Program-made: the position numbers and the translations under genes | Assembly: GCA_902598015.1 (NCBI GenBank) | Contig: CACJZT010000004.1 | Coordinates: 1 to 64,000, forward strand | Length of the DNA: 64,000 nucleotides | Direction: 5' to 3' | Source of the DNA: an uncultured Pelagibacteraceae bacterium | GTDB lineage: Bacteria > Pseudomonadota > Alphaproteobacteria > Pelagibacterales > Pelagibacteraceae | Shown: positions 28,515-61,896 of the stretch, piece after piece | How the letters are laid out: each line of letters begins with the position of its first letter | Position numbering within the stretch: position 1 is the first letter of the stretch | The notes under the pieces: model-generated | What the model was told of the DNA's origin: nothing | The model's input: the letters and a program-made list of their open reading frames with translations, nothing else | The model's database searches: none

Positions 28515-29288
28515 ATGAAAAATGAAATTAATCATATTGCTGGAAGACTTGTAAAAGCTTTCAACACAAATACAGTCATCAACCCTATCCCAGTAAAATA
28601 TTGTAAAAATATTAATTTAGCTAACAAACTTAGAAAATTGTGTGAAGATCAAATTAAAGATGAAACAATTGGAATAAAAGCTGGTGGAACTGGAATTCAA
28701 GCTTTAAAAAAATTAAAAGAAAAAGAACCTTTTACAGCAAAAGTATTTAAAAAAAGATTAGTTAAATCCGGTCAAAAAGTAAAAATAAACCAACACACTA
28801 AAGGTATAGAGGTTGAAGTTTATTATTTTATTAAGAAATCTTTCTTTGATTTTAAAGGAAAAGTCACAAAATCAAATGTCACTAAATTTATTAAATTTAT
28901 GGGGCCTTGTTTTGAAATAGTTGGATTTAGACAAAGAAATAAAAAATTTACGTATTTAGGAGACATTTGTGGGGATTTTGGATTTAACATCAAATTTGTT
29001 GTTGGAAGAAAAACAAAATTTAAAAAATTAAACTTAAATAATTTAAAAACATCATTAGTCAGCAAAAAGAATGGAATAAAGGTAAATGGTAATACAAATA
29101 TTGTTTATATTAACCCGTTAAATTCTTTAAGATTTGTTTTAAATAAAGTTAAGAAAGAAAAGATAAAATTAAATAAAGATTTTTATGTTTTCACAGGCTC
29201 AACTGTGGGAGTAGTTCCATTTAAAGGAAAAGGATTATACAAAGGAACAGTTGATAAAATCGGTTCTGTTAGTGTTAACATTCGTTAA
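28515..29288 (+). CDS. Fumarylacetoacetate hydrolase / 2-keto-4-pentenoate hydratase family protein
   Basis: IGIKAGGTG, GIEVEVYYFI, PCFEIVGFRQ, FTGSTVGVVPFKG. Confidence 0.65.
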   Translation: MKNEINHIAGRLVKAFNTNTVINPIPVKYCKNINLANKLRKLCEDQIKDETIGIKAGGTGIQALKKLKEKEPFTAKVFKKRLVKSGQKVKINQHTKGIEVEVYYFIKKSFFDFKGKVTKSNVTKFIKFMGPCFEIVGFRQRNKKFTYLGDICGDFGFNIKFVVGRKTKFKKLNLNNLKTSLVSKKNGIKVNGNTNIVYINPLNSLRFVLNKVKKEKIKLNKDFYVFTGSTVGVVPFKGKGLYKGTVDKIGSVSVNIR

Positions 29289-30439
29289 TGGGTCTTCATT
29301 TTAGTAAAGAAGAATTCTCAAATAGAAAAGAAAAGACACTGAACTCTATGAAAAATGAGGGTGTAGATGCTCTTATTATGTTTAGACAAGAGTCTATGTA
29401 TTGGCTCACTGGTTACGACACTTTCGGATATGTTTTTTTTCAAGCATTAGTTTTAGATCAAAAAGGTAATGTAATATTATTAACTAGAGCCCCTGATTTA
29501 AGGCAAGCTCAAAACACGTCCAATATTAGTGATATAAGAATTTGGATTGATAAGGATGGTTCTAATCCAGCTGATGATCTCAAAATTATTTTAGATGAAC
29601 TTAACTTAAAAGGAAAAAAAATTGGAGTTGAATATGAAGCATACGGTCTTACAGGAAGAAATGCATTAAGACTTAATACAGTTTTAAAAAACTATTGCTC
29701 AATTGAAGATAAGTCAGAATTAATTACAAAACTAAGGGTAATAAAATCTGATGAAGAAATTAGTTATGTAAAAAAAGCAGCAAATTTAGCTGACAAGGCT
29801 TTGGATGAAGTATGGAAACATGCAAAAGCAGGAGTAAGTGAATCTAAAATTCTAGCTGAAATGAATAGAGTTATATTTGAGGGAGGTGGAGATTATCCTG
29901 CTAATGAATTTATTATAGGGTCAGGAAAGAATGCCCTACTCTGTCGATATCAAGCAGAAAAACAAATACTTAATAATCAAGATCAGTTGACCATTGAATG
30001 GGCTGGAACCTACAGGCACTATCATTCAGCGATGTTTAGAACAATACCAATAGGAAAAGCAGATCCAAAACATCTTAAAATGCATGAAGCATGTGTTGAG
30101 GCGCTTACAAATTGTGAAAATAAATTAAAGCCTGGAAATAAAATTGGAGAGGTTTTCGATGTCCATGCAAAAACCTTTGATGATCATGGCTTTAAAAATT
30201 CAAGAATGAATGCATGTGGTTACTCTTTAGGTGCAACTTTTTCACCAAACTGGATGGATTGGCCAATGCTTTATACTGGCAACCCTTACGTTATAGAACC
30301 AGGCAACATCTTCTTCATGCACATGATATTGATGAATTCTGAAAGTCAATTAGCGATGAATTTAGGTGAAACTTATCTAGTTACTGATAAAGGAAATGAA
30401 AGGTTGGGTAATCAAAAATTAGATTTGGTAACTTTATAA
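29288..30439 (+). CDS. M24 family aminopeptidase/creatinase-like protein
   Basis: ESMYWLTGYDTFGYVFFQALVLD, KLRVIKSDEEI, EPGNIFFMHMI; ectoine-hydrolase/Xaa-Pro-peptidase-like. Confidence 0.85.
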   Translation: MGLHFSKEEFSNRKEKTLNSMKNEGVDALIMFRQESMYWLTGYDTFGYVFFQALVLDQKGNVILLTRAPDLRQAQNTSNISDIRIWIDKDGSNPADDLKIILDELNLKGKKIGVEYEAYGLTGRNALRLNTVLKNYCSIEDKSELITKLRVIKSDEEISYVKKAANLADKALDEVWKHAKAGVSESKILAEMNRVIFEGGGDYPANEFIIGSGKNALLCRYQAEKQILNNQDQLTIEWAGTYRHYHSAMFRTIPIGKADPKHLKMHEACVEALTNCENKLKPGNKIGEVFDVHAKTFDDHGFKNSRMNACGYSLGATFSPNWMDWPMLYTGNPYVIEPGNIFFMHMILMNSESQLAMNLGETYLVTDKGNERLGNQKLDLVTL

Positions 30440-30447
30440 TTACTGAA

Positions 30448-30885
30448 TTAAGAATTTTTTAATTCCAATAAGACCATTGTTCTCCAGCCATTTTTCTCTC
30501 TTAAAACTTTTTTTGATATAATTCGATATCCAGATACTGTTGCATTTTCTAGTTTATTTTCAGCTGTCATTTCATAATCTTTTTCAACACCATAATTATT
30601 TTCTGAATGCGAAATTTTTTCCGATTTTACAATTAAGTGTTGTGAAATATCAGCTATTTTTAATTTGGCATCCATTATAGCTTTTTTTTCAGATATATTT
30701 AAATCTTTAGACCAACCTTGTCCGCACATTTTAACTATTTTTTCTGAAAATTTATTTTTTTCACACCATAAATTTGTAAATTTCATTAAATCATTTGATG
30801 ATTTAATTGAATTTTTATTCTTTACATATGACTTGTTGCAATTTGTTAATAATAAGCCAAAAATTATAATTAATATTAATCTCAT
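30448..30885 (-). CDS. Hypothetical lipoprotein
   Basis: Lipobox LLLTNC after hydrophobic N-terminus. Confidence 0.6.
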   Translation of the reverse strand: MRLILIIIFGLLLTNCNKSYVKNKNSIKSSNDLMKFTNLWCEKNKFSEKIVKMCGQGWSKDLNISEKKAIMDAKLKIADISQHLIVKSEKISHSENNYGVEKDYEMTAENKLENATVSGYRIISKKVLREKNGWRTMVLLELKNS

Positions 30886-30893
30886 TTAAGCTC

Positions 30894-31121
30894 CTATAAG
30901 TTTTCTAATATAAATAAAAATGACATGGTCAAAGCTTGATGGTACTTTTCATCCGTAAGAAAAGTTACAAAAAAGTTATCTTTTTCTTTACAAATGTATT
31001 GTTCTTTTTTGTTGATTATTTTGTCATTTATGACATCTGCTTCAGCATAATATTTACAATCACTCTTTGCCAAGACAGAACTTGTTAATAGAAAGAAAAT
31101 TATTACAAATCTTTTGACCAT
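30894..31121 (-). CDS. Hypothetical secreted small protein
   Basis: 75-aa ORF with signal-peptide-like N-terminus MVKRFVIIFFLLTSSVLAKS. Confidence 0.45.
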   Translation of the reverse strand: MVKRFVIIFFLLTSSVLAKSDCKYYAEADVINDKIINKKEQYICKEKDNFFVTFLTDEKYHQALTMSFLFILENL

Positions 31122-31423
31122 AACTTCTCTTTCTTTTGTTGTGATAACTCAAATTGTATTTGATTAAGAATGGCATCCATTAAATCAAAAAATGCTGATT
31201 GAACTTCTTGTTCAAATACTTTTTTTTGACATTCACTATTACATTGTGTCAAATTATGGGTAAGTGTTTGTTTGTAATACTCATTACTCTTGCCAAATGA
31301 GTGGGTAGTAAAGGTAATTAAAAACAAAAATAAAATTGTTTTAATTATTTTCATAATTATCCTCCTTAGTATATTTTTCAATTGTTTTTTTATAATCGTA
31401 AAAATCCAAGGTATCAGCTTCAA
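31103..31423 (-). CDS. Hypothetical secreted small protein
   Basis: Signal peptide MKIIKTILFLFLITFTTHSFG from an internal ATG is a likelier start than the track start. Confidence 0.45.
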   Translation of the reverse strand: MKLIPWIFTIIKKQLKNILRRIIMKIIKTILFLFLITFTTHSFGKSNEYYKQTLTHNLTQCNSECQKKVFEQEVQSAFFDLMDAILNQIQFELSQQKKEKLWSKDL

Positions 31424-31544
31424 GTTTACATAATTTTTTAATAATTATATTTTGAAGTCTCTCTAATTTTTCATCACTTAGTTTAGACATTTTATATTCA
31501 AACTTATTTCTAAACTTAGAAATGGGAATTTCTTTCTGTTTCAC
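31341..31544 (-). CDS. Hypothetical 67-aa protein
   Basis: Highly charged small ORF upstream of the secreted small ORFs. Confidence 0.35.
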   Translation of the reverse strand: MKQKEIPISKFRNKFEYKMSKLSDEKLERLQNIIIKKLCKLEADTLDFYDYKKTIEKYTKEDNYENN

Positions 31545-31660
31545 ATCTATTATGTAGTTATTTTATCCTGTAACACCTAGTGTAAAATAAATTAATATTT
31601 TTCACTTAGTAAATTAAAGCTTTTTAAGCTTATGATTATAAATTAAGATAACAAATTATT

Positions 31661-32116
31661 ATGACTAAAATAAGAGAACCATTATCAATTGAAAAAATTT
31701 TGACAGATTTGATCGGTAAATTAAAAGAAAATGAAATTAAAGAATTTACGGGAAAATCAATTTCTCATTTTAGAAAATGCAGTGATCCTGATGATAAAGA
31801 TCATAACCTTCACTTAGCTGATGCTATTAAACTTGATATTCTCTCGTTAAGATCACAAAATGGTAGTCCTTTTTTAGACAATATTGAATTAATTATTGAC
31901 CAAGAATTTAATGAATTAGAAAAATTAAAAGATGTATCCAGAATATTAAATAATATTGGTGGCAGAATTGGAAATTTAATGGATGTAACAGAGCAAGCAA
32001 CAAGTCCTGAAAGTCAAAAAGGTGCTGAAATATCTAGTAAAGAAAAAGATAACATATTTAAAGCAATATCTGAAGTAGAAGAAAAAATTGCTAAATTGAA
32101 ACTTTCAGTAAAATAA
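31661..32116 (+). CDS. Hypothetical; possible phage CII-like regulator
   Basis: TGKSISHFRKCSDPDDKDHNLHLADAIKLDILSL resembles HTH-containing CII-type proteins; weak. Confidence 0.45.
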   Translation: MTKIREPLSIEKILTDLIGKLKENEIKEFTGKSISHFRKCSDPDDKDHNLHLADAIKLDILSLRSQNGSPFLDNIELIIDQEFNELEKLKDVSRILNNIGGRIGNLMDVTEQATSPESQKGAEISSKEKDNIFKAISEVEEKIAKLKLSVK

Positions 32117-32130
32117 ATTAAATTTTAAAA

Positions 32131-32826
32131 ATGAAAATAGATATTTATGGAAATGGTGCTGAAATTGTAATTGGTAAGTTGTCCCAAAAACAAACTGAAA
32201 AAATTTTTCCACTTCTCTCTAAAAAAGATGATGGAATAGATGAAACGGAGTTTGAAAGAATTATGGAAAAACCATGGAATGAAATTGATAATATTTTTCA
32301 TTGGAGTGGAGCTTTTGGAGGAAATTATGGATTTTATCTTACAAATGAAAAAGAGGAAGAAATTAAACCTGAAGGTACATTAAGTTTTAACTTTGATGAT
32401 GATGATTGCTTTACAAATAATAATAAAAATGGAATAGACAATTATCAAGTAGGAATAAATAAATTTAATCCTTACATAGATAAAATGTTTCTGTCTGGAC
32501 GCAGTAAAGATGTCACTGACGAAATGAAAAAATTTGCAGAAAACAGTGGGGTTATTTTTATGTGCGTTAGTCAAGAAAAGGGGCATTGGGGAAGTTTTGA
32601 ACTGAAAGATAATTTTGATGTAAAAAAATTAGTACCAAAAATAGCTTGTCCTGAAGTTGGTTTATATCATGAATGTCTTTATGGTTTTTTATACGATGGT
32701 AAAGAAGTTGAAGTTGAATTTACTGGAGATACTATAGGTAAAACAAGAACTTTTTATTTAATAGAACCAACCTATACTGATGATGGTCAAATTTCTTATG
32801 ATATAGCTGATGAATGGTATATGTAA
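32131..32826 (+). CDS. Hypothetical protein sharing a domain with the C-terminus of the DUF4116-type protein
   Basis: AEIVIGKLSQKQTEKIF vs AGKVVFGKLDKKQEESFY, with similar downstream layout. Confidence 0.6.
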   Translation: MKIDIYGNGAEIVIGKLSQKQTEKIFPLLSKKDDGIDETEFERIMEKPWNEIDNIFHWSGAFGGNYGFYLTNEKEEEIKPEGTLSFNFDDDDCFTNNNKNGIDNYQVGINKFNPYIDKMFLSGRSKDVTDEMKKFAENSGVIFMCVSQEKGHWGSFELKDNFDVKKLVPKIACPEVGLYHECLYGFLYDGKEVEVEFTGDTIGKTRTFYLIEPTYTDDGQISYDIADEWYM

Positions 32827-32832
32827 TTTGAT

Positions 32833-34872
32833 ATGAATTTTAATTCTTTAGTTTGGTATTCTTCATTAGCAATAGGTGATGAAAAAAATAGTTATGTAGC
32901 TGATTTTCTTAATAAAAGTTGCGAACTTATTAATGAAGAAATTAATGAAGAGATAAAAGAAAAAAAACTTCCTATTAATTTTAAAATTGATTTTCTACAC
33001 ATACCAAAGGGTGAAGATGGAGTTAATTTATTAAATAATAAATTAACTAGTTATACAAATCCTATATTTACAAACGGTCACTCAATTCCAAAATACAACC
33101 CTTCTATTATTGAGAATATAAAAGATAAAAGTTTCTTTTATTTTCCTCAAAATATAACTCATGCAAGTTACAATAAATTTGAAGAAAATATTAAAAAAAG
33201 GATTTTCAAAGTAGGTAGAGCTGACCAACCAGCAAAGTTAGCGTTTATAGATAATGAAATAAAAAAACATTCTTCATCTAAAGTTTATTTTTTTCATCAA
33301 GAATTAAGATTATCTGAAAAAATGTTAGCTAATCACAAAGATAATGTAAATTTTACTAGCATTTCATTAAAAGATATTGATGAAAAAGATTTAGATCAAA
33401 AAATTAAATCTTACCTTGATGAAATAAAACCTAAAGATTTAATTATACTTGATTTGAATTTAAAGGTTTTCAGACCAATATTTAATTACTTAAACAACAA
33501 TAGTCTTTCAAACAAAGTTATTAATACATTTGGAACCATTGAAAATAGGTTTGAAAAAATAAGTTTTAACTTAATTCAATTAATAGGAAATCATGGGATT
33601 CCTTCAGTTTCTATTGAGGATTTAATGTCTAAGATCTATGGTGAAAATGTAACACCAACAGATAAAGCTTTACTATTAGAGAGCACATTTAGATTAGAAA
33701 TTCCTATTTTAGCATTTCAGACTTTAAAGAAATGTATCAATTCAGGATTAACAAATATTGAAGATCAAAATATTTTAGAAACTTTATTATCTTTTAATAA
33801 TGATAGTGATGTATTTGTTGGAAAACGTATTCAATATGGATTTAATCAATCTAATGAAAATATTTTAAAGGAAAATTATGCTTATACTTTTCCAAATTCT
33901 CTTCAAAACGAAAAATATAAAATTCCAAAAATTCTACACCCATCTCAGTTTTCAACAGTAAATGGTAAGATTCAACAATTTAATACTGTATATAATTATA
34001 TAGATGTACTTAGAATAACTAATATAGATATAAAAGAAAAAACATGGACTGCAGAATTTTATTTAGACCTTGTATCTCAGTCAGATGATCCTCTAAATCA
34101 AGTTATCTTTAATAATTTATCTTCAACAAACGATAAATTTACGTCTAAGGAAATTTGGAGAAGAAAAGATGAAGACGATTATAATACAGTTAGATATTAT
34201 ATAGTTGCTAACTTTGATTTTTTAGCAATTGCAGATAATTATCCTTTTGATTGGCAAAGTGTTTATATTTCGATGACACTAAAGGATAATTCGAGACATA
34301 TCCTGCAACCAATTCCATTAGAATTAGTAGATGATGAATTTGATATTAATGAGTGGCATATCGAAAATGCTTTCTCTGGTATAAAATATAAGAAAAACTT
34401 TTTATACAAAGATACTGATCTTAAAAAGACAGTTACTGTATCAAGTGAAAATAGATTAGGTTGGACTTTAAGAAGAAAAAATACTGCAACTTTATTTAAA
34501 ATTGGAATTCCAATGTTCTTCTTAACGTTTTTGGTCTATTACTCTGTATTTTTAGGTTTTGATAAATCAGGAGAAAGTATAGGAATTTTAACAACAACAT
34601 TCTTATCGGCAATTGCTTTATATTTTTCAGTAGAGAAGCCTGAACCAAAAAAATTAACAATTATTGATATTATATTTATTTGGTTTTATATTGTGAATGG
34701 TTTTACCATCACCGCATTCAGTTTATCTTCATTAATTACTGAAAAAATTCATTATTATACGAGTGGATTTTTAAAATTTGTTATTCCTATATCATTAATT
34801 AGTATAGCAATTTATTTATATAAAAGAGTTCAAAATAACAGAAAAGATATAATCTTAGATAGAGATCTATAA
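32833..34872 (+). CDS. Predicted periplasmic-binding-protein-like / pentameric ligand-gated ion channel (Cys-loop superfamily) fusion
   Basis: C-terminus: NYIDVLRITNIDI...YYIVANFDFLAIADNYPFDWQSVYISM...EWHI...LRRKN + four TM segments (IGIPMFFLTFLVYYSVFL / SIGILTTTFLSAIALYFSV / LTIIDIIFIWFYIVNGFTITAF / FLKFVIPISLISIAIYLYK) in pLGIC order. N-terminus resembles type I periplasmic-binding fold (FKVGRADQPAKLAFIDNEIKKHSSSKVYFFHQE). Confidence 0.8.
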   Translation: MNFNSLVWYSSLAIGDEKNSYVADFLNKSCELINEEINEEIKEKKLPINFKIDFLHIPKGEDGVNLLNNKLTSYTNPIFTNGHSIPKYNPSIIENIKDKSFFYFPQNITHASYNKFEENIKKRIFKVGRADQPAKLAFIDNEIKKHSSSKVYFFHQELRLSEKMLANHKDNVNFTSISLKDIDEKDLDQKIKSYLDEIKPKDLIILDLNLKVFRPIFNYLNNNSLSNKVINTFGTIENRFEKISFNLIQLIGNHGIPSVSIEDLMSKIYGENVTPTDKALLLESTFRLEIPILAFQTLKKCINSGLTNIEDQNILETLLSFNNDSDVFVGKRIQYGFNQSNENILKENYAYTFPNSLQNEKYKIPKILHPSQFSTVNGKIQQFNTVYNYIDVLRITNIDIKEKTWTAEFYLDLVSQSDDPLNQVIFNNLSSTNDKFTSKEIWRRKDEDDYNTVRYYIVANFDFLAIADNYPFDWQSVYISMTLKDNSRHILQPIPLELVDDEFDINEWHIENAFSGIKYKKNFLYKDTDLKKTVTVSSENRLGWTLRRKNTATLFKIGIPMFFLTFLVYYSVFLGFDKSGESIGILTTTFLSAIALYFSVEKPEPKKLTIIDIIFIWFYIVNGFTITAFSLSSLITEKIHYYTSGFLKFVIPISLISIAIYLYKRVQNNRKDIILDRDL

Positions 34873-34948
34873 ATAATTTTTTGCTCAATTTAAAAATAGT
34901 TTCACTTATGGTAATCTGAAAGAAAAAATTATAAATGAAGGAGAATAT

Positions 34949-35287
34949 ATGGGATTTAGATCATTATTTACAAAAGGAGTTGCACTAACTTCAGCAGGAC
35001 GTACAAGTCAACACTCTAGAAAAGCATCTTCTTATGCCAAACAAGCAATTAATTGTTTTAGACAGGCAAAATCACTTAAAGCTGAAAAAAAAATAGATAA
35101 AATGTTAGATGGTTTAAATCATCTTTCAAACTCTGTCTTGGAAGTATCTGATAGTGTTACACCAATTTCTATGATGAATGCAACTAGCGCTCTTCTAGCA
35201 GACAATATTCAAAAAATGATAAATCAAAGTCAATTAAATATCATCAATACTCTTGGAAATAAAAAAATAAAGAAAAAAAGTAAATGA
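34949..35287 (+). CDS. Hypothetical protein, 112 aa
   Basis: ORF preceded by AAGGAG-type ribosome-binding sequence; no family recognised. Confidence 0.5.
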   Translation: MGFRSLFTKGVALTSAGRTSQHSRKASSYAKQAINCFRQAKSLKAEKKIDKMLDGLNHLSNSVLEVSDSVTPISMMNATSALLADNIQKMINQSQLNIINTLGNKKIKKKSK

Positions 35288-35333
35288 CTTTCACAGAGTG
35301 GGACAATGCTTTTGCTGATTTATCAAATGTAAC

Positions 35334-35984
35334 TTAATTTTTAGATAAATATTTTCTATTTATAAAATTATAATTTAAATGTTCAGGATTAATCTTATTT
35401 TTCATAAAATCATTAAAAAGTTGGTTATCTTCAGGATAAAGCAACCATAAAAAATTTTTACCGTATTTTTCTTCGATCTTTTTTTCATATAAATGGAATG
35501 AATAGATAACTTGTGAGGTTAAGCTAATTGGAGCTGATTTTAAATCATTGATAAAGCGTTTAATTCCTAAACTGGTGAAATTAGCAGGTGTAAAGGGTGA
35601 TCCATGTAAACCTGGTGCAAGTATTTCACTTTCTTTAGAAGATCCATACACAGTTTGAATAGCCTTTTGATATTTATTTTCAGAAAAATTTTTTTTAAAA
35701 ATATATTTAGCAACATCTTTCGTGAGTTGGAAATAATAAGGCCAACGAACTAATTTAATTTTCTCTTTTAAACATAATTCGTTTTTCCTTAAATCGCGCT
35801 CATGATTTGCAACTTTATCATAATGATCTGGACCATCATATTCAAAAGCAATTTTATCATCAGGAAAATATATATCTAAACTAAATCTAGCAAGCTTATG
35901 TTCTGATACATTATTTTTTTCTAAAAAAAGTTGAGATATGAATTTTAAATTTTTTGCAGTCATTTCTGCATTTTTTTTTTTCAT
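35334..35984 (-). CDS. DUF559/Vsr-like restriction-endonuclease-fold protein
   Basis: FSLDIYFPDDKIAFEYDGPDHY...HERDLRKNELCLKEKIKLVRWPYY. Confidence 0.65.
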   Translation of the reverse strand: MKKKNAEMTAKNLKFISQLFLEKNNVSEHKLARFSLDIYFPDDKIAFEYDGPDHYDKVANHERDLRKNELCLKEKIKLVRWPYYFQLTKDVAKYIFKKNFSENKYQKAIQTVYGSSKESEILAPGLHGSPFTPANFTSLGIKRFINDLKSAPISLTSQVIYSFHLYEKKIEEKYGKNFLWLLYPEDNQLFNDFMKNKINPEHLNYNFINRKYLSKN

Positions 35985-36002
35985 AAGAATTTAATTAAGT
36001 AT

Positions 36003-37595
36003 TTAAAAATATTTCCCTTCACCATTATAACTAGAATATAATTTTTTCATTTCTCCATTTTTTACTTCAATAACTGTTATTAGATCATCATAACCTCGAT
36101 CAACCAATTCAGCATCTAAGAACTCTTGTAAAGATTCTCCTTTGTAAACGCAATCAATTATAATATTAAAATCGTGATTTCCGTATCTTTCGTGCTCAAT
36201 CATCCCTGGAAGTCTAACAGGTACTGATATCTCTTGAAATTGTTCAGTGTCAAATTCTTCTTTATCTTTAAGTTCAAATTCAAATTGAATGGATGCTTTT
36301 GATAAACTTAATAAAGTTAAATATAAACCATCCTCATATTTATCATTTTGTTTTGGAATTTGTATTTTATCATCGTCAAAAACAATTATACCCTCATTAC
36401 CTTTATCACCGTTTTCACCATAATTAAATACACCTTCATATTCTTTTGCAGCAAGACCTCCATAGGCTAAATTTTGTAGATCTTCACCCATATCTTCTTT
36501 GTTTGAATATTTTTTATAAAATGACTCTTCCTGCTTTTTGTCTAACTTACCAAAAACAACTTTACCTGCAGGCTCTGTTTTGATGTATATTTCTTTGTTT
36601 ACTTTTAAATCCTTCTTAAACGATTTGTCAGCAAATTGAATTGCACTTTCATCTTGTGCTATTGCAGCATCGACAATCTCTTTGTCTTTTTTTAAACTTT
36701 CATGTGCAAATTTTAAATTTTGACCACTAATTTTCACTAATTCTAAAATAAACTCTTTATCTTTAATTAAATTTTCATCAACGATATATTCAAGGGCATC
36801 AGTATGATATTGTCTTACAGCTTCAATAATAATATCTTTATCATATTTTAAATTATCATCTGCATAATTAAATGCATTACCAGCTTTTTTTACTGCCTCT
36901 AAAACAATCTCTTTATTTTTTTTGAATTTATCATCTACGTATTCTAGGGCAGAACCGTATTGTTTTACTGCTTCAAAAACAATTTCTTCATCTTTTTTAA
37001 AACTATCATCAGCAAATTGAATAGCCGAACCCTCACATTTTACTGCAATTAAAACAATCTCTTTATTTTTTTTAAAACTATCATCTACGTATTCAAGAGC
37101 ATAACCATCTTTTTTTACAGCTTCTGAAACTATCTGATTATCTTTTCTAAACTCCTCATCTGCATATTGTATAGCTGAACCATATTGTTTCACAGCCTCT
37201 AAAACTATTTCTCTATCCCTTTTGAACGCATCATCCGCATACTGTAGTGCAGCGCCATGTCCTTTAACCGCTTCTAAAATAACCTCTCTATCCTTGGTTA
37301 AACTTTTATCTGCATATGAAATAAGTGTTCCATCAGTTTTAATTGCCTCAAGAACTATTTTTTTGTCTTTTTTAAAAATTTGATCTGCATATTCAAGTGC
37401 ATAACCGTTGTTTTTGATAGCTTCTAGGACTATTTCTTCATCTTTTTTTAAACTATCATCTGCAAACTGAATTATTGTCCCATTTTGTTTTACAGCTTCT
37501 AAAACTATTTCTTTATCTTTTTTAAATTCATCAGATAAATTCTCTAATTCATAACTAGACGATTTGACTATTTCTAATGCTTCTTCTTTTTTCAT
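36003..37595 (-). CDS. DUF4116-type repeat protein (12 x 25 aa) with distinct C-terminal domain
   Basis: Repeat consensus KKDKEIVLEAVKQxGxALQYADDSF repeated 12 times in register plus degenerate N-terminal copy. Confidence 0.85.
   Translation of the reverse strand: MKKEEALEIVKSSSYELENLSDEFKKDKEIVLEAVKQNGTIIQFADDSLKKDEEIVLEAIKNNGYALEYADQIFKKDKKIVLEAIKTDGTLISYADKSLTKDREVILEAVKGHGAALQYADDAFKRDREIVLEAVKQYGSAIQYADEEFRKDNQIVSEAVKKDGYALEYVDDSFKKNKEIVLIAVKCEGSAIQFADDSFKKDEEIVFEAVKQYGSALEYVDDKFKKNKEIVLEAVKKAGNAFNYADDNLKYDKDIIIEAVRQYHTDALEYIVDENLIKDKEFILELVKISGQNLKFAHESLKKDKEIVDAAIAQDESAIQFADKSFKKDLKVNKEIYIKTEPAGKVVFGKLDKKQEESFYKKYSNKEDMGEDLQNLAYGGLAAKEYEGVFNYGENGDKGNEGIIVFDDDKIQIPKQNDKYEDGLYLTLLSLSKASIQFEFELKDKEEFDTEQFQEISVPVRLPGMIEHERYGNHDFNIIIDCVYKGESLQEFLDAELVDRGYDDLITVIEVKNGEMKKLYSSYNGEGKYF
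36620..37535 (-). repeat. Tandem 75-bp (25-aa) coding repeats, about 12 units
   Basis: Counted from the translated ORF; boundaries approximate. Confidence 0.8.
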
Positions 37596-37625
37596 AATTT
37601 TTATTCTTGAACCATATTTTTTTTT

Positions 37626-37871
37626 CTATTTATCTTCCCAAACAATTTTATTATTTTCATCCATAATCCTTATTTCATCTCTTTCGGTTGCCAAACAATC
37701 ACTTTTTGCATTAAAATTTATTACAATTTCATCATCATAATCCTCATTTTCAAGGGTACTCCATAATTCATCAAGATTTTTTGCCTCATATTCAAGTGTA
37801 TGTTCTACAATTTTGTTTTCATTTTCATTTTCATAAGATGAACTGTATTTAAAAGTCACGAAAAATTTCAT
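37626..37871 (-). CDS. Hypothetical acidic protein, 81 aa
   Basis: ORF in tight same-strand cluster; no family recognised. Confidence 0.55.
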   Translation of the reverse strand: MKFFVTFKYSSSYENENENKIVEHTLEYEAKNLDELWSTLENEDYDDEIVINFNAKSDCLATERDEIRIMDENNKIVWEDK

Positions 37872-37872
37872 T

Positions 37873-38577
37873 TTAATTTTTTTTTAACTCAATATTACTT
37901 AATCTAAGAATTAATTGATATTGGTTTTTATTTATTCTGCCATCTAAAAATCCTCTATATGGACTTCCATTTGTTTGAAAAATTAATGGTTCCTTGCCTG
38001 ATTTACCACCTCCTAAAAACATTAAACTTTTTTTATTATCCAATGTTTTTGCCATGTCATACAAAAATTCAAAAGTTAAACCGTCAGTGTGTCTTAGTTG
38101 AATACTTTTATTGATTACAAATTTTTTTAATATTTCTTCTCTTTTAAAAAACTTACCAGTCCATTTAAGGGGAGGAGTATCATCTCTTACATTTGGTACT
38201 TTTTCTTTAGGATCCTGTTTTTTTATCTCTTTTCCATCTTTATTGAATAAAACTTCTTTAATCTTTGGAGGTGAATAGAGAATTTCATTATTTGAGTTAA
38301 ATAAAATTCTATCTGCATCTCCTATAAATTTACCTGCATATTCAATGTCAACATCAACATCATTTTTTAAAATATTTTCTGCTAGTTTAGATTTGTATTT
38401 TTTAATTAAACTTTCTTCAGAAGTTTCATCTGAGCTAATAAGTAATCTAGAATTCTTTATAGATTTACCTTTGTAAGCAAGCTTTGGATCATTTTCTTTT
38501 ATCAAAGATACAAATCTAACATTTGCATCTCTCTTTTTTTCGTTTGATATATGTATTTCTTTTAAAGCTACTGTCAT
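37873..38577 (-). CDS. Hypothetical protein, 234 aa
   Basis: Same-strand cluster; start overlaps stop of 38577-39176; C-terminal EPLIFQTNGSPYRGFLDGR segment. Confidence 0.65.
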   Translation of the reverse strand: MTVALKEIHISNEKKRDANVRFVSLIKENDPKLAYKGKSIKNSRLLISSDETSEESLIKKYKSKLAENILKNDVDVDIEYAGKFIGDADRILFNSNNEILYSPPKIKEVLFNKDGKEIKKQDPKEKVPNVRDDTPPLKWTGKFFKREEILKKFVINKSIQLRHTDGLTFEFLYDMAKTLDNKKSLMFLGGGKSGKEPLIFQTNGSPYRGFLDGRINKNQYQLILRLSNIELKKN

Positions 38578-39176
38578 TAAATCATCTCAAAATCTAAATC
38601 GTTATCTTCAAATTCTTCTACTTCTTCAGGAAGATCCTCACTTTTTTCCCCTACCCAATTACAAGTAGTTTTCCGCCCAATTAAAGCAAAATAATCTTTT
38701 TCACCTTTTAAGATAATTCCATCCTCAAGTTTAAAATCAGCATAATAATTGAATGGAAAACTAAAAACATCTCCTTTGTCTAACTTTAATTTTAAATCTT
38801 CATCAAAATCTTTTGGTTCTAGATGATATACAGAATTAACCTTTAAGTTTAATGCTTCTTCAATAGATGTCGAGGTTAAGTCTACTTCTTTACCAAGTGT
38901 AGATTCTTCTTTTTTAACTTTTTTGCCATCATCATTAATTGCCTCTAATTCTTTTTTTTCAACAAAATTACCTTTATGATCTAAATAGCTGCTACTTATA
39001 TCACTACTAACAAATACAATACCTGTTTCTTCCTCTAAATTAGCTTTTGAGCACTCTTTTCCTTTCTCATCTAAAAATAATCTTTTTTTAAATCCATAAA
39101 GTTTTTTTCTATCAATTTTAGATATTCCAAAAGTAGATTTGTTTTTATTAAGATTAAGAATTAATTCACGCGCCAT
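38577..39176 (-). CDS. Hypothetical protein, 199 aa
   Basis: Same-strand cluster; LDEKGKEC, YLDHKGNFVE, FSFPFNYYADF segments; overlaps the ligase-like gene by 11 bp. Confidence 0.65.
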   Translation of the reverse strand: MARELILNLNKNKSTFGISKIDRKKLYGFKKRLFLDEKGKECSKANLEEETGIVFVSSDISSSYLDHKGNFVEKKELEAINDDGKKVKKEESTLGKEVDLTSTSIEEALNLKVNSVYHLEPKDFDEDLKLKLDKGDVFSFPFNYYADFKLEDGIILKGEKDYFALIGRKTTCNWVGEKSEDLPEEVEEFEDNDLDFEMI

Positions 39177-40518
39177 TTTTTTCCCAACCTTTTTTTATAT
39201 TTTCTAAAATAAGATTTTTAAAATGATTTAAACCAAGTTTTTCATCTTCAAAAGGATACAATTTTCTTTTTATTGGATCACTTCTTCCTTCTGAATAATC
39301 TAAGTAATAACAAAGATATGATGGGTAATCTGATAATTTTTCTTTATTTGATTTCCAGAACAAAAATTTTCTAATTGCAGTTCCTTTTTTACTTTCTTTT
39401 TTATAAGTTTCTTTTTTTATTATTTTACTTTTAGGAAGATCTTTATTGTTTACTTCTTTAAATTCACTTTTGGGAATACCACTTACTTTTATGATTTGAT
39501 CTATTCCACAATCTTCAAAATTTGCTTTTTTGTCAGATCTAATATTAACAACATTACAATTTAATATTGATACCGATCTTGATCTTCCTGTAGCATTTAA
39601 AGATTTATTTGAGTATTCATATTTTAAATGTCTTATCGGTTCATCATTTGATTTATCTCCCTGAAATTCTAATAATTTAATTTCACAAACTATCTCAGGT
39701 TTTATAAAATTATATGCAGAACCATTTGAAGCTATTTTTTGAAAGTTAGAATTAACTTTTAATTTAACTAATTTTTTATAAAGATCTTTCCTTAAAATAG
39801 TTGGTATATTACCACATGAACCTACGTGTAAAATTTCATTTTCATTTAAAAAAACGCCAAGCGAAATTGATCTAATTTGATTAGGTGTATTACCTATTGT
39901 ATATCCAGTTATTAATAGGTCTACAGTTTCTTCATTTTTAATTTTATAAACAGCACTATCATTTCTAACAATTAAACCTTCGGCATTATTTTTAATTACT
40001 ATTTCTTTAAAATATTTATCTACCTCTGAATGTTTTATTTGTTTATGTTCTAATACATGAGACAAATCTTTGGAATTTTCACCTAAATTTTTTTTTAAAA
40101 AATTATATTTTTCCCCAAAACTACTTAAAAGTTTATCAGATATAACTACATCAAAGAGACCTAATCTAAGGTTTTTTCTTTTTAATTTATCTCCTAGTCC
40201 AGAAATAGTGTCTCCGTAACGCTCTCTTTCTTTTGTTAAATAATATAATTCACCTGCTAGAATAATATTCTTTGTTTTTGATAACTTTTTATCTAATTCT
40301 TTTTTAATATCACTTAATAATTTTGAAATATCATTTTCATTAGAATTAATTATTTTTGAGTTTTTATTCGATTTACAATAAAACCATATTTGTCCATCGT
40401 ACTTTCTGGAAAACCAATATTTTCCTTTTACAATTATGTCTAAATCATCATTAGATAAAAAAATATATTTCCTAGTAACTGAATTTTTATATTTTTTAAT
40501 CGAACTAATTATTTCCAT
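39166..40518 (-). CDS. ATP-dependent DNA/RNA ligase-like nucleotidyltransferase
   Basis: Covalent nucleotidyltransferase motifs in order: I RKYDG (K39), GELYY, LGLFDVV (III), EGLIVR (IV), VYKIKNEETVDLLITGY (V), then OB-like KPEIVCEIKLLEF...IRHLKYEY. Confidence 0.8.
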   Translation of the reverse strand: MEIISSIKKYKNSVTRKYIFLSNDDLDIIVKGKYWFSRKYDGQIWFYCKSNKNSKIINSNENDISKLLSDIKKELDKKLSKTKNIILAGELYYLTKERERYGDTISGLGDKLKRKNLRLGLFDVVISDKLLSSFGEKYNFLKKNLGENSKDLSHVLEHKQIKHSEVDKYFKEIVIKNNAEGLIVRNDSAVYKIKNEETVDLLITGYTIGNTPNQIRSISLGVFLNENEILHVGSCGNIPTILRKDLYKKLVKLKVNSNFQKIASNGSAYNFIKPEIVCEIKLLEFQGDKSNDEPIRHLKYEYSNKSLNATGRSRSVSILNCNVVNIRSDKKANFEDCGIDQIIKVSGIPKSEFKEVNNKDLPKSKIIKKETYKKESKKGTAIRKFLFWKSNKEKLSDYPSYLCYYLDYSEGRSDPIKRKLYPFEDEKLGLNHFKNLILENIKKGWEKNGA

Positions 40519-40532
40519 TAAACCTAATAGAA

Positions 40533-41186
40533 TTAAAAATTATTTTTTTTCAAATTACAAATACTACAATTTTCATCAAAACTTGGTTTTGGGTTTTCAA
40601 GAAAATCTATTATATCTGTAATAAAGCTAAACAAATAATCATCATCTCTTTGGATAGGATAATATTTTGTTTTCATGTTGAAAGATGGATTATTATTAAC
40701 TGATTGAATTTTTTCTGGTTCAAAACAAAATATTCCTAAATTTTTAATGGGATTAAGTTTAAGACATTTCTCATTAGGTTTCTCAAACATTAACGCATAA
40801 CTTAACAATTGAGTTTTATATAATTCGATTTTCTTTTCATTAATATCAGTAACCTTGAAATCTATAATTGAATAAAAAGACTCATGATCAATATATGCAT
40901 CTATTTTCCCTCTAAGAATAAATTTTCTACCTTTTTTATCTTTTAATATCTCTGATTTTTGAAGTTTTTCATAATCTGTTTTTATTTCACCAGGTTCAAT
41001 ATTTGCATTTAAAATATCAGTTTTTTTGTTGTGATAAAATTCTTTTTGAAGTTTATCTAGTTTTGAAAATATTGAGGGAAATGTTGTTGAAACTCTTAAA
41101 TTATCTTTCTTTAAATCATAATAGCATCTCTTACAACCAGAATAACCAAAAGCAAATTCACTTGGAGAAAATATTATCTCTTTCAT
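40533..41186 (-). CDS. PD-(D/E)XK nuclease, RecB/Cas4-like, with four-Cys arrangement
   Basis: GCKRCYYDL; GKIDAYIDHESFYSIIDFKVT (D...DFK); QLLSYA (QxxxY); C-terminal CSIC. Confidence 0.8.
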   Translation of the reverse strand: MKEIIFSPSEFAFGYSGCKRCYYDLKKDNLRVSTTFPSIFSKLDKLQKEFYHNKKTDILNANIEPGEIKTDYEKLQKSEILKDKKGRKFILRGKIDAYIDHESFYSIIDFKVTDINEKKIELYKTQLLSYALMFEKPNEKCLKLNPIKNLGIFCFEPEKIQSVNNNPSFNMKTKYYPIQRDDDYLFSFITDIIDFLENPKPSFDENCSICNLKKNNF

Positions 41187-41205
41187 ATATTTTGTTTAAA
41201 AATTA

Positions 41206-41664
41206 TTATAATTCTTTAGTGCAACCAAAGAAAGAAATATATTTTTCATTATCTTTAGTATTCATATTTTTAGTGACTTCATGAATTAATTCACCAGTTG
41301 ATCTATTTAAAAAGACTGACTCTGAGTATTTTTTTTCTTTATCTATATTTTTAAATAAAATGGTATCGTTTTTAGCAATTCTAACATCATCTTTACTAAT
41401 ATCTGAATAAGTATCTATAAATTCTGATAAACCATTAATAGTAAGTTTACTTGGTTGTGCTGCTACAACTTTTAATACTTTGCTTTTATCAACTTCAATA
41501 TTGTCTGCGGTAAAAGTTTGATAATTAAAATCTTTATTTTTGATCATTATTTTTTCTAATTTACAATCAAATGTAATTTTAAAATCATGAATGATATCAG
41601 TATTTTTGGAATAACTAACCGATGTAGAAAACATTAAAATTATTAATGAAACTATAATTTTCAT
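41206..41664 (-). CDS. Hypothetical secreted protein
   Basis: Signal peptide MKIIVSLIILMFSTSVSYS. Confidence 0.5.
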   Translation of the reverse strand: MKIIVSLIILMFSTSVSYSKNTDIIHDFKITFDCKLEKIMIKNKDFNYQTFTADNIEVDKSKVLKVVAAQPSKLTINGLSEFIDTYSDISKDDVRIAKNDTILFKNIDKEKKYSESVFLNRSTGELIHEVTKNMNTKDNEKYISFFGCTKEL

Positions 41665-41677
41665 TTGTTTAAATTAA

Positions 41678-42220
41678 TTACCTCAAATCTAGACTAAATT
41701 TTGTACATTTAACTACTTCTCCATCACAACCACATAGCACACAGTCACTTGCAGAATTACATACATAATCATTATAACCCTCTGCTTTAGTTTTATGAGA
41801 ATTCATCCAACTCTCTGTAAGTCCATGTCCTATACCCATATTACCATTAACTTTAACACCAAATGGATTTCTCGAACCAACTTGATGATACCAATACTTC
41901 CAAATATTATTTGTATGTGATGTATATCTACCATTAAAAATGTCTGAACAAGATGTTTGTATTGGGCTAAAATTTGTAAAACCTCCGTTACCATCAGATT
42001 TTCCACCTTGTGCTAGTTCAATTTTATCTGTTTGGTCAATTGCACATTTCATATAAGTGGTATTTACCCACTTAATAAATTTAGCATGATTTGACCACAC
42101 AACTTTTTTTTTAGCTGCTGCTGTGTATCCACTATAAGCAACAACACCTACTGCAGCTAATATTCCTATGATTGCTACCACAACTAGTAGTTCGATTAAT
42201 GTGAAACCATTATGTTTCAT
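41678..42220 (-). CDS. Type IV pilin-like protein (orphan copy)
   Basis: Prepilin motif MKHNG|FTLIELLVVVAIIGILAAVGVVAYSGYT, same N-terminus as the 59.9-62.4 kb array. Confidence 0.92.
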   Translation of the reverse strand: MKHNGFTLIELLVVVAIIGILAAVGVVAYSGYTAAAKKKVVWSNHAKFIKWVNTTYMKCAIDQTDKIELAQGGKSDGNGGFTNFSPIQTSCSDIFNGRYTSHTNNIWKYWYHQVGSRNPFGVKVNGNMGIGHGLTESWMNSHKTKAEGYNDYVCNSASDCVLCGCDGEVVKCTKFSLDLR

Positions 42221-42296
42221 AAAGTTATCTTATAATATTTTTTTAAATAAGTCTTGCACCCCAAATTTACACAACTAATACTGAAAATTTTATATT

Positions 42297-43172
42297 TTAA
42301 GATTTAGATGAAACTGTAAATTTTACTTTTTTATCTTTAAAATCTCTGCCTGTTCCCGTTACACCACCATCTCGTATCCACTCTAACACACCTGCGGCAC
42401 CCATATTATTTGTACATGATATTTGCCAAGTTCCTTTTCCATTTTGTTGTAATGAATAAGAGCCATCACAAGTTCCATCATTATTAGGTAAAGGTAAATT
42501 TATTTTACCTCTGTAATCAGCTTCATCAAAACTGACCGTTCCTGCAATTAAATCAGAATATCCATCCCAGCTTAATGCTATAGATCTTTCACCAGATAGT
42601 TCATATTTACTAGCAGTCTCATTTGAAGATGATTTCTCTTTTTTTGTACTTGTATCAATTTTTTTATTTAAATCTGCTTGCCCTGTTTCTAAATTTATCC
42701 CTGCGAGCAATCTTATATCTCCATCATAAAAACCTGCTTCTTGAATTTTCTTAGCAACTAAAAAAGGGTCTTTGAGATCAGATTTTTTAATGCTTACTTT
42801 TTTATTGCCGTTTTTCCAAACAATTCTTCTTTTTTTTGCAAATGTAAAACATGGAACGCCATTTGAGTATTTTTCACACGCTATTCTAGCTCTAGCAGCT
42901 GTATTGTTGTCCATACATCCATGTGCTCTATATTCTGCAGGACAATAGAAATATTCAAAAGCTTGACCATCTTTCGATAAAGCAAAAATAGTTGGGTCAT
43001 TTTTTGTTATTCTGTCAGCCGAATAATTTGTATTACCCGCACCATACATATACATAATAAGATATTCCATGGTTTCTTTAGATAATTTTACATCACCTTT
43101 ACCGGTTTTTGAATAAGATGCTGAAGGAAAAATTAATAATAAAAAGATAAGTAATAATTTTAAATATTTCAT
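42297..43172 (-). CDS. Hypothetical secreted protein with CxxFAKKxxIVWKNG domain
   Basis: Signal peptide; FTFAKKRRIVWKNGNKKVSIKKSDLKDPF segment shared with next ORF. Confidence 0.6.
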   Translation of the reverse strand: MKYLKLLLIFLLLIFPSASYSKTGKGDVKLSKETMEYLIMYMYGAGNTNYSADRITKNDPTIFALSKDGQAFEYFYCPAEYRAHGCMDNNTAARARIACEKYSNGVPCFTFAKKRRIVWKNGNKKVSIKKSDLKDPFLVAKKIQEAGFYDGDIRLLAGINLETGQADLNKKIDTSTKKEKSSSNETASKYELSGERSIALSWDGYSDLIAGTVSFDEADYRGKINLPLPNNDGTCDGSYSLQQNGKGTWQISCTNNMGAAGVLEWIRDGGVTGTGRDFKDKKVKFTVSSKS

Positions 43173-43612
43173 TTGTAAAATCCTAATTCTTTCATTAATG
43201 ATTTTAATTCATCAAAGGAAATTTTTCTAGAAATTTTTTTCTTCGCACCTTTCCAAACTATTTTATTTTTCTTTGCAAAAATTTTACAATTTGGACTGCT
43301 GCATCTACCTTTTTCTGGACCCAAATTAACTGATTTTGAATCCCACTGAAATATATTTTTATAATTTCCATTTATAACGAAGTAGTTAGCATAAAAAGGT
43401 TGCATACTATTGAAAGAAAATCCCTCAACTTCGAGATCTTCCATAATAAATTTATCTAATTTTTTTGTAATATAAACATGAAAATCTTTTAATTCTTTGT
43501 CATTGAAAGTAATTGGTCCAGAACCTGGTTTGGCTTTACCTGCGTGAGCATTTATTGTTATTAAACTACTCAAGATTATGCTTAATAAAACCTTTATTAA
43601 GTTTAATTTCAT
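43169..43612 (-). CDS. Hypothetical secreted protein paralogous to part of 42297-43172
   Basis: Signal peptide; KIFAKKNKIVWKGAKKKISRKISFDELKSLMKELGFY. Confidence 0.6.
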   Translation of the reverse strand: MKLNLIKVLLSIILSSLITINAHAGKAKPGSGPITFNDKELKDFHVYITKKLDKFIMEDLEVEGFSFNSMQPFYANYFVINGNYKNIFQWDSKSVNLGPEKGRCSSPNCKIFAKKNKIVWKGAKKKISRKISFDELKSLMKELGFYK

Positions 43613-43614
43613 AT

Positions 43615-44589
43615 TTAAATCTTATCAATTTTACCAAATAAATCTACAGCACTTTGCCACCCATTTTCTAATCTTGGTCCTCCAAAATAATCACCACACA
43701 GACCAAATTTTAAAGACTTATTCCATAAAGATAATTGTTTAAGTGGCTTTGAATTAGATGAATACATCCAGCCATGAATTCTTGAGTGATGAATTTTTTT
43801 AATTTTTAACTTTGTTAATTTTTCAAATTTTTTAACGAGTTGATTTGTATAGTATTTTCTTTTGTTTCTATAATCTTTCGTAAATTTATTACCGTATTTG
43901 TATGTGCTTTGAAGTGTCCATAAATCATACTTATAATTAAATCTTTTCTTGCTATTTTCATAAGCAGCCCAACCAAGCATATCATCATTAAAAAAGTAAC
44001 TACTATTTGATTGTTTAAGTTTATTGGTAACAATCATGACTGTTAAATTAGCATCCATTTTAACTTTTTGATTTAAATAGGATTTATTTAAGTATTTTTT
44101 TCCTAATTTCTTACTTTGAGGAAATGGGCAAGTCAAAATAAGATTTTTACATTTTTGTTTTACATCATTTTTGAATGTTAATTCCCAATAGTTGTTTAAT
44201 CTCTTTATATTTATAAGCTCATATTCAAAATTACATTTAATTTTCTTTAATAAATGTTTGCTAATAGAGTTGTTTCCTTTTGTTCCAATTAATTTTAAAT
44301 GATTTTTAATTTCTTTAACTGTTTTGTGAAGAAAAAGGTGGTTACCACCCCATTTTTTTAAAACTTTTTTCTTAATAAGTTGATTAGTAAATGATTTAAA
44401 TTTTGTAGATTTTGGAGAGATATATTGAAGTCCATGATCAAATCCGACTTTATCTTTATATTTTTTAAATGAACTTCTTCCACCATAACCTCTTGCTTTA
44501 TCATAAACTGCAATGGAGTATTTTTTATTTAATAATTTTGCGATTGTTGATCCAGAAATTCCTGATCCTATGATGCAAAAATCAAGCAT
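43615..44589 (-). CDS. FAD/NAD(P)-binding oxidoreductase (renalase-like)
   Basis: DFCIIGSGISGSTIAKLL; KARGYGGRSSF; LCGDYFGGPRLENGWQSA. Confidence 0.85.
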   Translation of the reverse strand: MLDFCIIGSGISGSTIAKLLNKKYSIAVYDKARGYGGRSSFKKYKDKVGFDHGLQYISPKSTKFKSFTNQLIKKKVLKKWGGNHLFLHKTVKEIKNHLKLIGTKGNNSISKHLLKKIKCNFEYELINIKRLNNYWELTFKNDVKQKCKNLILTCPFPQSKKLGKKYLNKSYLNQKVKMDANLTVMIVTNKLKQSNSSYFFNDDMLGWAAYENSKKRFNYKYDLWTLQSTYKYGNKFTKDYRNKRKYYTNQLVKKFEKLTKLKIKKIHHSRIHGWMYSSNSKPLKQLSLWNKSLKFGLCGDYFGGPRLENGWQSAVDLFGKIDKI

Positions 44590-44607
44590 GATTTGTAACT
44601 TGACTGA

Positions 44608-45780
44608 TTAACAAAGATACTCAAGTGCCTTAAGTATTCCACCTTTTTTATAAGGTATTTTAGATTTCATTAAACCCATTTCAACACCTGCTAATGTTCC
44701 AGCTAACATCAGTTCATTAAAATCACCTAGATGACCAATTCTAAAAATTTTACCAGCAACTTTTGCAAGTCCAGTTCCCAAAGACATGTTATAATGATCT
44801 AAAATAGTTTTTCTTAAAAAATCTGCATCATGACCATCTGGAACCATTACTGCTGTTAATGAATCTGAGTATTCTTCTGGATTTTTACAAAGTATTTCTA
44901 ATCCCCAAGAGTTAACTGCAACTCTTGTAGCTTCTGCAAATCTTTTGTGTCTTTTGAAAACATTATCTAAACCTTCTTCTGTAAGCATATTGATTGCTTC
45001 ATCCAAACCATAAAATAAATTTGTGGCTGGTGTGTAAGGAAAGTAACCTTTTTTATTGTTTTCTAACATCGGTCCCCAATCCCAGTAAGATTTTGGTAAT
45101 TCAGATGTTTTATATGCCTCTAAAGCTTTAGAACTTATTGCATTAAAAGAAAGTCCTGGTGGTAATAGTAATCCTTTTTGAGAACCACCAACAGTTACAT
45201 CCACTTTCCACTCTTCATGTCTATAATCAATAGAGCCTAATGAAGATATCGTATCAACAAATAATAAAGCTGGATGTTCCGCATTATCCATAGCTTTTCT
45301 AATTTCTCCAATTCTACTTGTAACACCTGTAGAAGTTTCATTATGTACAGCACAAACTGCTTTAATTTTTTTATCTTTGTCTTCTTTTAGTTTTTGTTCA
45401 ACGATGTTTGGATCAACACCTGTTCTCCAATCACCTTCAACAAAGTCAACTTTAATTTTAAATTTTTGAGCAATATCCCACCAAAGAGTTGAGAAATGTC
45501 CAGTTTCAAACATCAAGATTTTATCTCCAGCACTTAAAGTGTTTACAAGCGCGGCTTCCCAAGCTCCCGTTCCTGAAGCTGGAAAAATTATTACAGGTTC
45601 AGAGGTTTTGAAAATTAATTTTATTCGATCTAAAACTCTTAATCCTAATTCAGCAAAGTCAGGTCCTCTATGATCTATAGTTGGATAATCCATAGCTCTT
45701 AGAACTCTATCTGGAACGTTTGTTGGTCCTGGAATTTGTAAAAAATGTCGACCAGGTCTTATATTATTTGAAATTGCCAT
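44608..45780 (-). CDS. Serine-glyoxylate-type aminotransferase (class V, PLP)
   Basis: RPGRHFLQIPGPTNVPDRVLRAMD, DTISSLGSIDYRHEEWKVDVTVGGSQKGLLLPPGLSF. Confidence 0.93.
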   Translation of the reverse strand: MAISNNIRPGRHFLQIPGPTNVPDRVLRAMDYPTIDHRGPDFAELGLRVLDRIKLIFKTSEPVIIFPASGTGAWEAALVNTLSAGDKILMFETGHFSTLWWDIAQKFKIKVDFVEGDWRTGVDPNIVEQKLKEDKDKKIKAVCAVHNETSTGVTSRIGEIRKAMDNAEHPALLFVDTISSLGSIDYRHEEWKVDVTVGGSQKGLLLPPGLSFNAISSKALEAYKTSELPKSYWDWGPMLENNKKGYFPYTPATNLFYGLDEAINMLTEEGLDNVFKRHKRFAEATRVAVNSWGLEILCKNPEEYSDSLTAVMVPDGHDADFLRKTILDHYNMSLGTGLAKVAGKIFRIGHLGDFNELMLAGTLAGVEMGLMKSKIPYKKGGILKALEYLC

Positions 45781-59882: not shown

Positions 59883-60413
59883 TTAGGGTTTACATATTTC
59901 TGTTTCTAAATATTCTTTATCAGCTATTTCAGAAATAACTACTACTGACCAACAATTAGACCCGAAAGCGTTAAATGCATAAGAAATTTTAGTAGTACCA
60001 GTCATTGTTGGTTTTGATCCGCCACTGGAATAATTTCCACCATCAAGAATAGCTGGTTCACAAAATTTTCCCCTTTTTTGACCATAAGGAGAACACCAAG
60101 TTGATCCACCATATTGAAAATGTGTTACCATTGCTGCTCTAAAATTTGCTAAATTACTTTGGTATAACTTTGAACATTGGTTTGATGTCTTGCCTCCAGC
60201 CCCATTTAGAATTAAATCTGATCCAGTTTCACATAGCATCATAGAATTTTTAATAAATTTAACTATTTTATTATGATTTGCTTTCGTTGCATTTTTTTTT
60301 GCTCCACTAGTATACCCGCTATAAGCAACTACACCTACTGCAGCTAATATTCCTATAATAGCTACAACAACTAGGAGTTCTATTAATGTGAAACCTTTTT
60401 TATTCATAATCAT
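59883..60413 (-). CDS. Type IV pilin-like protein (array copy)
   Basis: MNKKG|FTLIELLVVVAIIGILAAVGVVAYSGYTSGAKKNATKANH. Confidence 0.93.
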   Translation of the reverse strand: MIMNKKGFTLIELLVVVAIIGILAAVGVVAYSGYTSGAKKNATKANHNKIVKFIKNSMMLCETGSDLILNGAGGKTSNQCSKLYQSNLANFRAAMVTHFQYGGSTWCSPYGQKRGKFCEPAILDGGNYSSGGSKPTMTGTTKISYAFNAFGSNCWSVVVISEIADKEYLETEICKP

Positions 60414-60416
60414 TAA

Positions 60417-61888: not shown

Positions 61889-61896
61889 AAATAATA

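Follow-up and report, generated by a model that had tools for sequence, protein, structure and literature searches.

A rare, horizontally moving three-gene unit around an ATP-dependent DNA ligase in variable islands of SAR11 bacteria

Ku-LigD end joining, the WGR break sensors, the Cas4/AddB-type RecB nucleases and the Mza, HerA and Hhe-like neighbourhoods of other SAR11 bacteria are the known systems that come nearest to a cluster of seven minus-strand genes at positions 35334-41186 of a 64,000-nucleotide stretch (hereafter the window) from an uncultured Pelagibacteraceae bacterium (contig CACJZT010000004.1, the fourth of 25 contigs in an assembly that is 80% complete). The cluster's ATP-dependent DNA ligase shares with Ku-LigD a nucleotidyltransferase and OB-fold core, and its best curated model match is TIGR02779, the non-homologous end joining (NHEJ) ligase domain (6.7e-17, 61.7 bits). 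However, this score lies far below the model's cut-off of 227.75 bits, neither a polymerase nor a phosphoesterase domain was matched, and the enzyme has two unrelated orphan partners, p199 and p234, together with a predicted WGR-like C terminus. The WGR domains of PARP proteins bind DNA breaks, and it is the fold of PARP2 and of phage and bacterial WGR proteins that ligase residues 363-450 are predicted to adopt, although the domain would here be carried by a ligase rather than an ADP-ribosyltransferase. A 217-amino-acid (aa) nuclease in the cluster has the PD-(D/E)XK core and the conserved cysteines at both ends that are found in Cas4/AddB-type enzymes, but it scores 22.1 bits against a cut-off of 65 with the Cas4 model TIGR00372 and sits beside a ligase or, elsewhere, beside other defence genes. 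No CRISPR-like array was found at 29000-45000, where the direct repeats are the coding repeats of a DUF4116 gene and one two-copy pair. The same nuclease family also occurs in the Mza, HerA and Hhe-like neighbourhoods, none of whose core proteins is present in the window's cluster.

The conserved unit of the cluster is not a nuclease with a ligase but a trio of ligase, p199 and p234, because these three genes recur together under strong purifying selection while the nucleases vary. Their positions are as follows.

39166..40518, minus strand: ATP-dependent DNA ligase, 450 aa, core gene (Pfam DNA_ligase_A_M 5.1e-14, above cut-off)
39169..39441, minus strand: last ~90 aa of the ligase, WGR-like by fold prediction (AlphaFold2, AF2, and Foldseek; Pfam sequence test negative)
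38577..39176, minus strand: p199, second core gene, 199 aa, overlapping the ligase by 11 bp; no family match
37873..38577, minus strand: p234, third core gene, 234 aa, with one base common to p199; no family match

A p234 search in which each species was represented by a single genome gave seven loci, and whole-genome searches brought the trio to eight genomes, seven of them SAR11 and the eighth a divergent alphaproteobacterium (G840); a ninth genome (G854) holds the ligase alone, cut by a contig end. Those homologues that carry a name belong to Pelagibacteraceae. The order ligase-p199-p234 is kept in all seven SAR11 genomes, in one of which (G839) it is split over two contigs, and is rearranged in G840 to p199-p234-ligase, where the genes still overlap. 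All three proteins are 65-96% identical within SAR11; the G840 copies reach 46% for p234, which thus spans 46-96% across the eight genomes, and about 36-37% for the ligase. p199 was found in all eight loci in which its position is assembled, the G840 copy being a C-terminal fragment at a contig end. Between the SAR11 copies, pN/pS is 0.05-0.24 for p199 and p234 (0.06-0.19 for p234), indicating strong purifying selection, and 0.16-0.32 for the ligase, which is likewise under strong purifying selection. The middle three genes form one block in eight genomes, which is more than a chance arrangement. Four or more genes of the cluster lie within about 10 kb in at least six other genomes, in some cases across contig breaks, so that the co-occurrence on which the sequence-only reading had staked its claim is borne out.

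That reading had also placed the seven open reading frames exactly where we find them and had called their junctions correctly, including the 1-bp gap between p234 and an 81-aa orphan. No terminator was found inside the cluster on its own strand, and no structured RNA was found. Neither orphan of the trio could be assigned to a family: p199 has no match in the PDB, Pfam, NCBIfam or PHROGs, and p234 none in Pfam, NCBIfam or PHROGs. PADLOC-DB 2023 gave weak matches for the nucleases and the DUF4116 protein only, and none for the ligase, p199, p234 or the 81-aa protein, which is also without a match in Pfam, NCBIfam and PHROGs. The suspicion that this is an unnamed DNA-processing combination has held up: p199 and p234 fall outside the PADLOC, Pfam, NCBIfam and PHROG models, none of which puts the ligase in a named system. 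A literature search within open-licence papers found no description of the gene set.

Assignment of the 450-aa protein as a DNA ligase agrees across Pfam, NCBIfam, PHROG, PDB profile and Foldseek searches, the top Foldseek matches being DNA ligases that include LigD and Lig IV. By eye on the alignment, we assign motif I to K39-x-D-G, motif III to E90, IIIa to F122-D123, IV to E180-G181, V to K192/K194 and VI to R327-x-D-K; these residues are invariant among seven homologues, including the 37%-identical copy. With KxDG, motifs III, IV, V and VI, and an OB domain (Pfam DNA_ligase_A_C, matched below its cut-off), the protein is placed by its sequence in the ATP-dependent DNA ligase superfamily. 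Confidence in the AF2 model is highest over the C-terminal residues 363-450 (predicted local distance difference test score, pLDDT, ~70-89 over much of their length). Foldseek aligns these residues with the PARP2 WGR domain as bound to a nicked nucleosome (probability 0.98, TMt 0.49-0.50) and a phage WGR protein (probability 1.00, TMt 0.50), in both cases with weak E-values and from a model built on a shallow alignment, and WGR matches were obtained in two structure libraries. Given what PARP WGR domains bind, the predicted domain suggests a break-sensing ligase.

We give an even chance to the reading that the trio forms a break-sensing and break-sealing complex carried in SAR11 defence-type islands. 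The predicted WGR-like domain would recognise a DNA nick or end; p199 and p234, whose genes overlap and are co-conserved with the ligase, would be its stoichiometric partners and would keep hold of the ends or select them; and the ligase, whose motifs are kept, would seal the break by ATP-dependent ligation. Such a module would probably repair breaks in the cell's own DNA that arise when the cell is in conflict with phages or with other foreign DNA, or that the island's own nucleases make; phage nucleases, the companion nucleases or DNA exchange may be the sources. A more specific version is possible but doubtful, namely that this is an altogether new type of bacterial conflict system in which a WGR-armed ligase and two orphan subunits detect, seal or mark breaks during phage attack, with interchangeable nuclease partners. 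Among the defence genes known so far, a mobile unit built around a break-sealing rather than a break-making enzyme would be out of the ordinary. p199 and p234, each of which represents a new protein family, have an obvious partner.

Several observations weigh against the complex. The Pfam WGR profile found no match in the isolated C-terminal domain even at E 10, and the Foldseek E-values (0.1-0.4) are weak despite the high probabilities, for which reasons the WGR-like fold is a prediction. The ligase model as a whole is poor (mean pLDDT 49), and the arginine of motif Ia, usual after motif I, appears to be missing in the SAR11 copies, which may change what the enzyme can do. Neither p199 nor p234 could be assigned a fold, the AF2 model of p234 (pLDDT 36) not being used; the sample of trio loci is small and drawn mostly from incomplete genomes; and a defence role would be read from gene neighbourhood only.

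This neighbourhood is suggestive in several genomes. A KAP NTPase of the PifA/QatA type adjoins the trio in G840, and in G836 a kinase-like protein with weak PD-T4-6/Mko matches stands next to it. In SAR11 genomes other than the window's, the family of the 217-aa nuclease adjoins MzaB/C/E, HerA, a Hhe/PDC-S37-like helicase and C5 methylases. One SAR11 genome (G1125, L076 3-9615) has an Mza-like operon with MzaB, MzaC and MzaE homologues, in which a RecB-like nuclease stands at the start and a C5 methylase at the end.

The remaining four genes of the cluster are accessories.

40533..41186, minus strand: RecB/Cas4-like PD-(D/E)XK nuclease, 217 aa, with CxxC...CxxC cysteines (PDDEXK_1 9.6e-6; Cas4 models weak)
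37626..37871, minus strand: 81-aa orphan; no family match
36003..37595, minus strand: 530-aa DUF4116 repeat protein, C-terminal part unassigned (Pfam PF13475 1.4e-144; 75-bp repeat unit)
35334..35984, minus strand: 216-aa Vsr-like PD-(D/E)xK endonuclease by motif (D37 ... FEYDGPDHY; PHROG 559 4.7e-13)

Profile scans bore out the labels that had been given by eye to the ligase, the DUF4116 protein and the PD-(D/E)XK nuclease, whereas the 216-aa protein, previously called DUF559/Vsr, has no Pfam DUF559 or Vsr match and resembles these families in motif only. Its best match is PHROG 559, 'HNH endonuclease', followed by weak PvuRts1I/mREase models. Six of the nine genomes that have the trio or the ligase encode this 559-type nuclease, which in G835 lies on another, short contig, and the other copies are 29-37% identical to the window's. 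The RecB-like nuclease, in which D96, D109-x-K111, Q126, C18, C21, C207 and C210 are invariant in four copies, adjoins the trio in four of eight loci (the window, G835, G839 and G103) and is polyphyletic: the G103 copy, at 29% identity, falls in a different part of the tree, together with a nuclease whose genome showed no trio. A DUF2779/Cas4-like protein takes its place in G834. Synonymous divergence from the G835 copies is 0.86 in the window's RecB-like gene and 0.30-0.39 in its trio, and these pieces therefore have different histories. DUF4116 genes lie near the trio in five genomes, and the only homologue found for the 81-aa orphan is in G021, beside a 559-type nuclease. Being optional and polyphyletic, the nucleases, like the DUF4116 protein, are exchangeable accessories from a common island gene pool.

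These data bear most directly on the proposal of the sequence-only reading that two nucleases and a ligase form a cut-process-seal pathway, a defence in which the nucleases cut foreign DNA, the ligase and its partners act on the products, and all seven genes make one system. All seven genes do share a strand, and where they do not overlap the gap never exceeds 30 bp. The RecB-type family is known from defence neighbourhoods, and both nucleases are enriched with the trio among SAR11 genomes (559-type, 4/7 trio genomes versus 2/149; RecB-type, 4/7 versus 9/149). However, as far as the loci are assembled, the trio stands without a RecB-type nuclease in G834, G836 and G838 and without a 559-type nuclease in G103 and G838, the RecB-type occurs in genomes without a detected trio, and the nucleases, where seen, are 22-38% identical while the trio is kept at 65-96%. 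The partial linkage may simply reflect a common gene pool, because a 679-aa island protein is linked to the trio even more strongly. With a cutting part that is not constant, a single cut-and-seal system is weakened and we consider it unlikely.

A general repair function, in which the trio replaces a missing Ku-LigD pathway and deals with environmental damage rather than phage, appears improbable. The ligase is closest to the LigD/NHEJ domain model, Ku (PF02735) has no match in the window's genome as far as this is complete, and a UmuD-UmuC pair adjoins the trio in G836, between it and recA/tolC-like genes (L007 3669-5322). Nevertheless, a resemblance of p199 and p234 to Ku seen by eye was not upheld by hhalign against 14 Ku domains (probability <=0.1%), and canonical Ku-LigD end joining is not supported. 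The distribution is also unlike that of housekeeping repair, being patchy and island-borne: the trio is present in 4 of 397 Pelagibacterales genomes (~1%), with no further case among 385 genomes from the rest of the class. It is located at five chromosomal sites or more, those outside the window's genome being near rlmB/tuf, recA-umuDC, purL and coaD/gyrA (UmuDC was identified by Pfam, the other genes from their sequence), and since these sites differ between genomes the trio has moved; it is a rare, horizontally moving three-gene module. A viral or plasmid origin is ruled against by negative scans: viral contigs gave no match to the ligase, p199 or p234 (short exact peptide patterns, by which distant relatives may be missed), phages none to the ligase or p234, and plasmids none to the ligase, p234 or p199, the G840 ligase retrieving only weak LigD-type matches from plasmids.

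Three close relatives, with flanks 91-96% identical, match the window up to ~30429-30455 and again from ~41196-41222, and at the same site hold unrelated segments of 3.9 kb, 0.88 kb and 0.65 kb. It follows that the window carries an exchangeable island of ~10.8 kb. An island setting had been named as a point to check for the cluster, but the boundaries drawn at 35334-41186, although they enclose a real cluster, are too narrow, as this is the right half of the island. The island and its further genes are listed below.

30440..41205: whole variable island holding the cluster (~10.8 kb; flank comparison with three relatives)
30448-31423: small island genes
31661-32116, plus strand: 151-aa island gene; no Pfam match
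32131-32826: island gene
32833-34872, plus strand: channel-like 679-aa protein; weak pentameric ligand-gated ion channel match
34949-35287: island gene

No integrase-like gene was seen among the island genes, and a check within each boundary segment found no short repeats; exchange through flanking homology is probably the simplest reading of the turnover. The 679-aa protein has a YPFDWQ motif, hydrophobic C-terminal segments and a weak match to 4x5t (E 0.009). It is present in six of seven SAR11 trio genomes versus 1/149 others (Fisher p = 2.7e-9), and in only 3/151 Pelagibacter genomes; such companion counts are small and come from incomplete genomes, and the Fisher tests take genomes as independent. 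The strength of this linkage indicates that part of the companion linkage reflects a common island gene pool. The ligase, p199, p234, the 559-type nuclease and the 679-aa protein offer a marker set for SAR11 island exchange.

It is conceivable, though we hold it to be improbable, that the trio serves the mobility or maintenance of the island itself, as a complex that joins breaks and thereby aids the repair or incorporation of island DNA entering the cell. The clean exchange site without a recognised integrase, the spread over five or more chromosomal sites and the frequent company of the 679-aa, 112-aa and 151-aa genes are all consistent with this. Against it, the alternative contents of the same site lack the trio, so that exchange at this site does not need it; the trio is missing from nearly all other Pelagibacterales genomes; and flank homology would be enough for exchange. 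That the ligase acts on RNA, or adenylates ends without sealing DNA, is the least probable reading by far, for although the G840 copy has a weak Pfam RNA_ligase match (6e-5) and motif Ia appears unusual, all stronger matches are to DNA ligases, and the DNA_ligase_A_C match and motif VI are present.

The 151-aa family turns up close to the RecB-like nuclease in nine genomes (32-81% identity), in islands with the trio and in islands without it, and may be a regulator. One close relative has three other genes at the island site (L088 13428-17276), of which one encodes a protein of 729 aa in which a trypsin-like protease region is recognised by sequence motif. Outside the island, the window has several type IV pilin-like genes at 41678-42220 and at 59883-62424, the latter a tandem run of diverged pilins.

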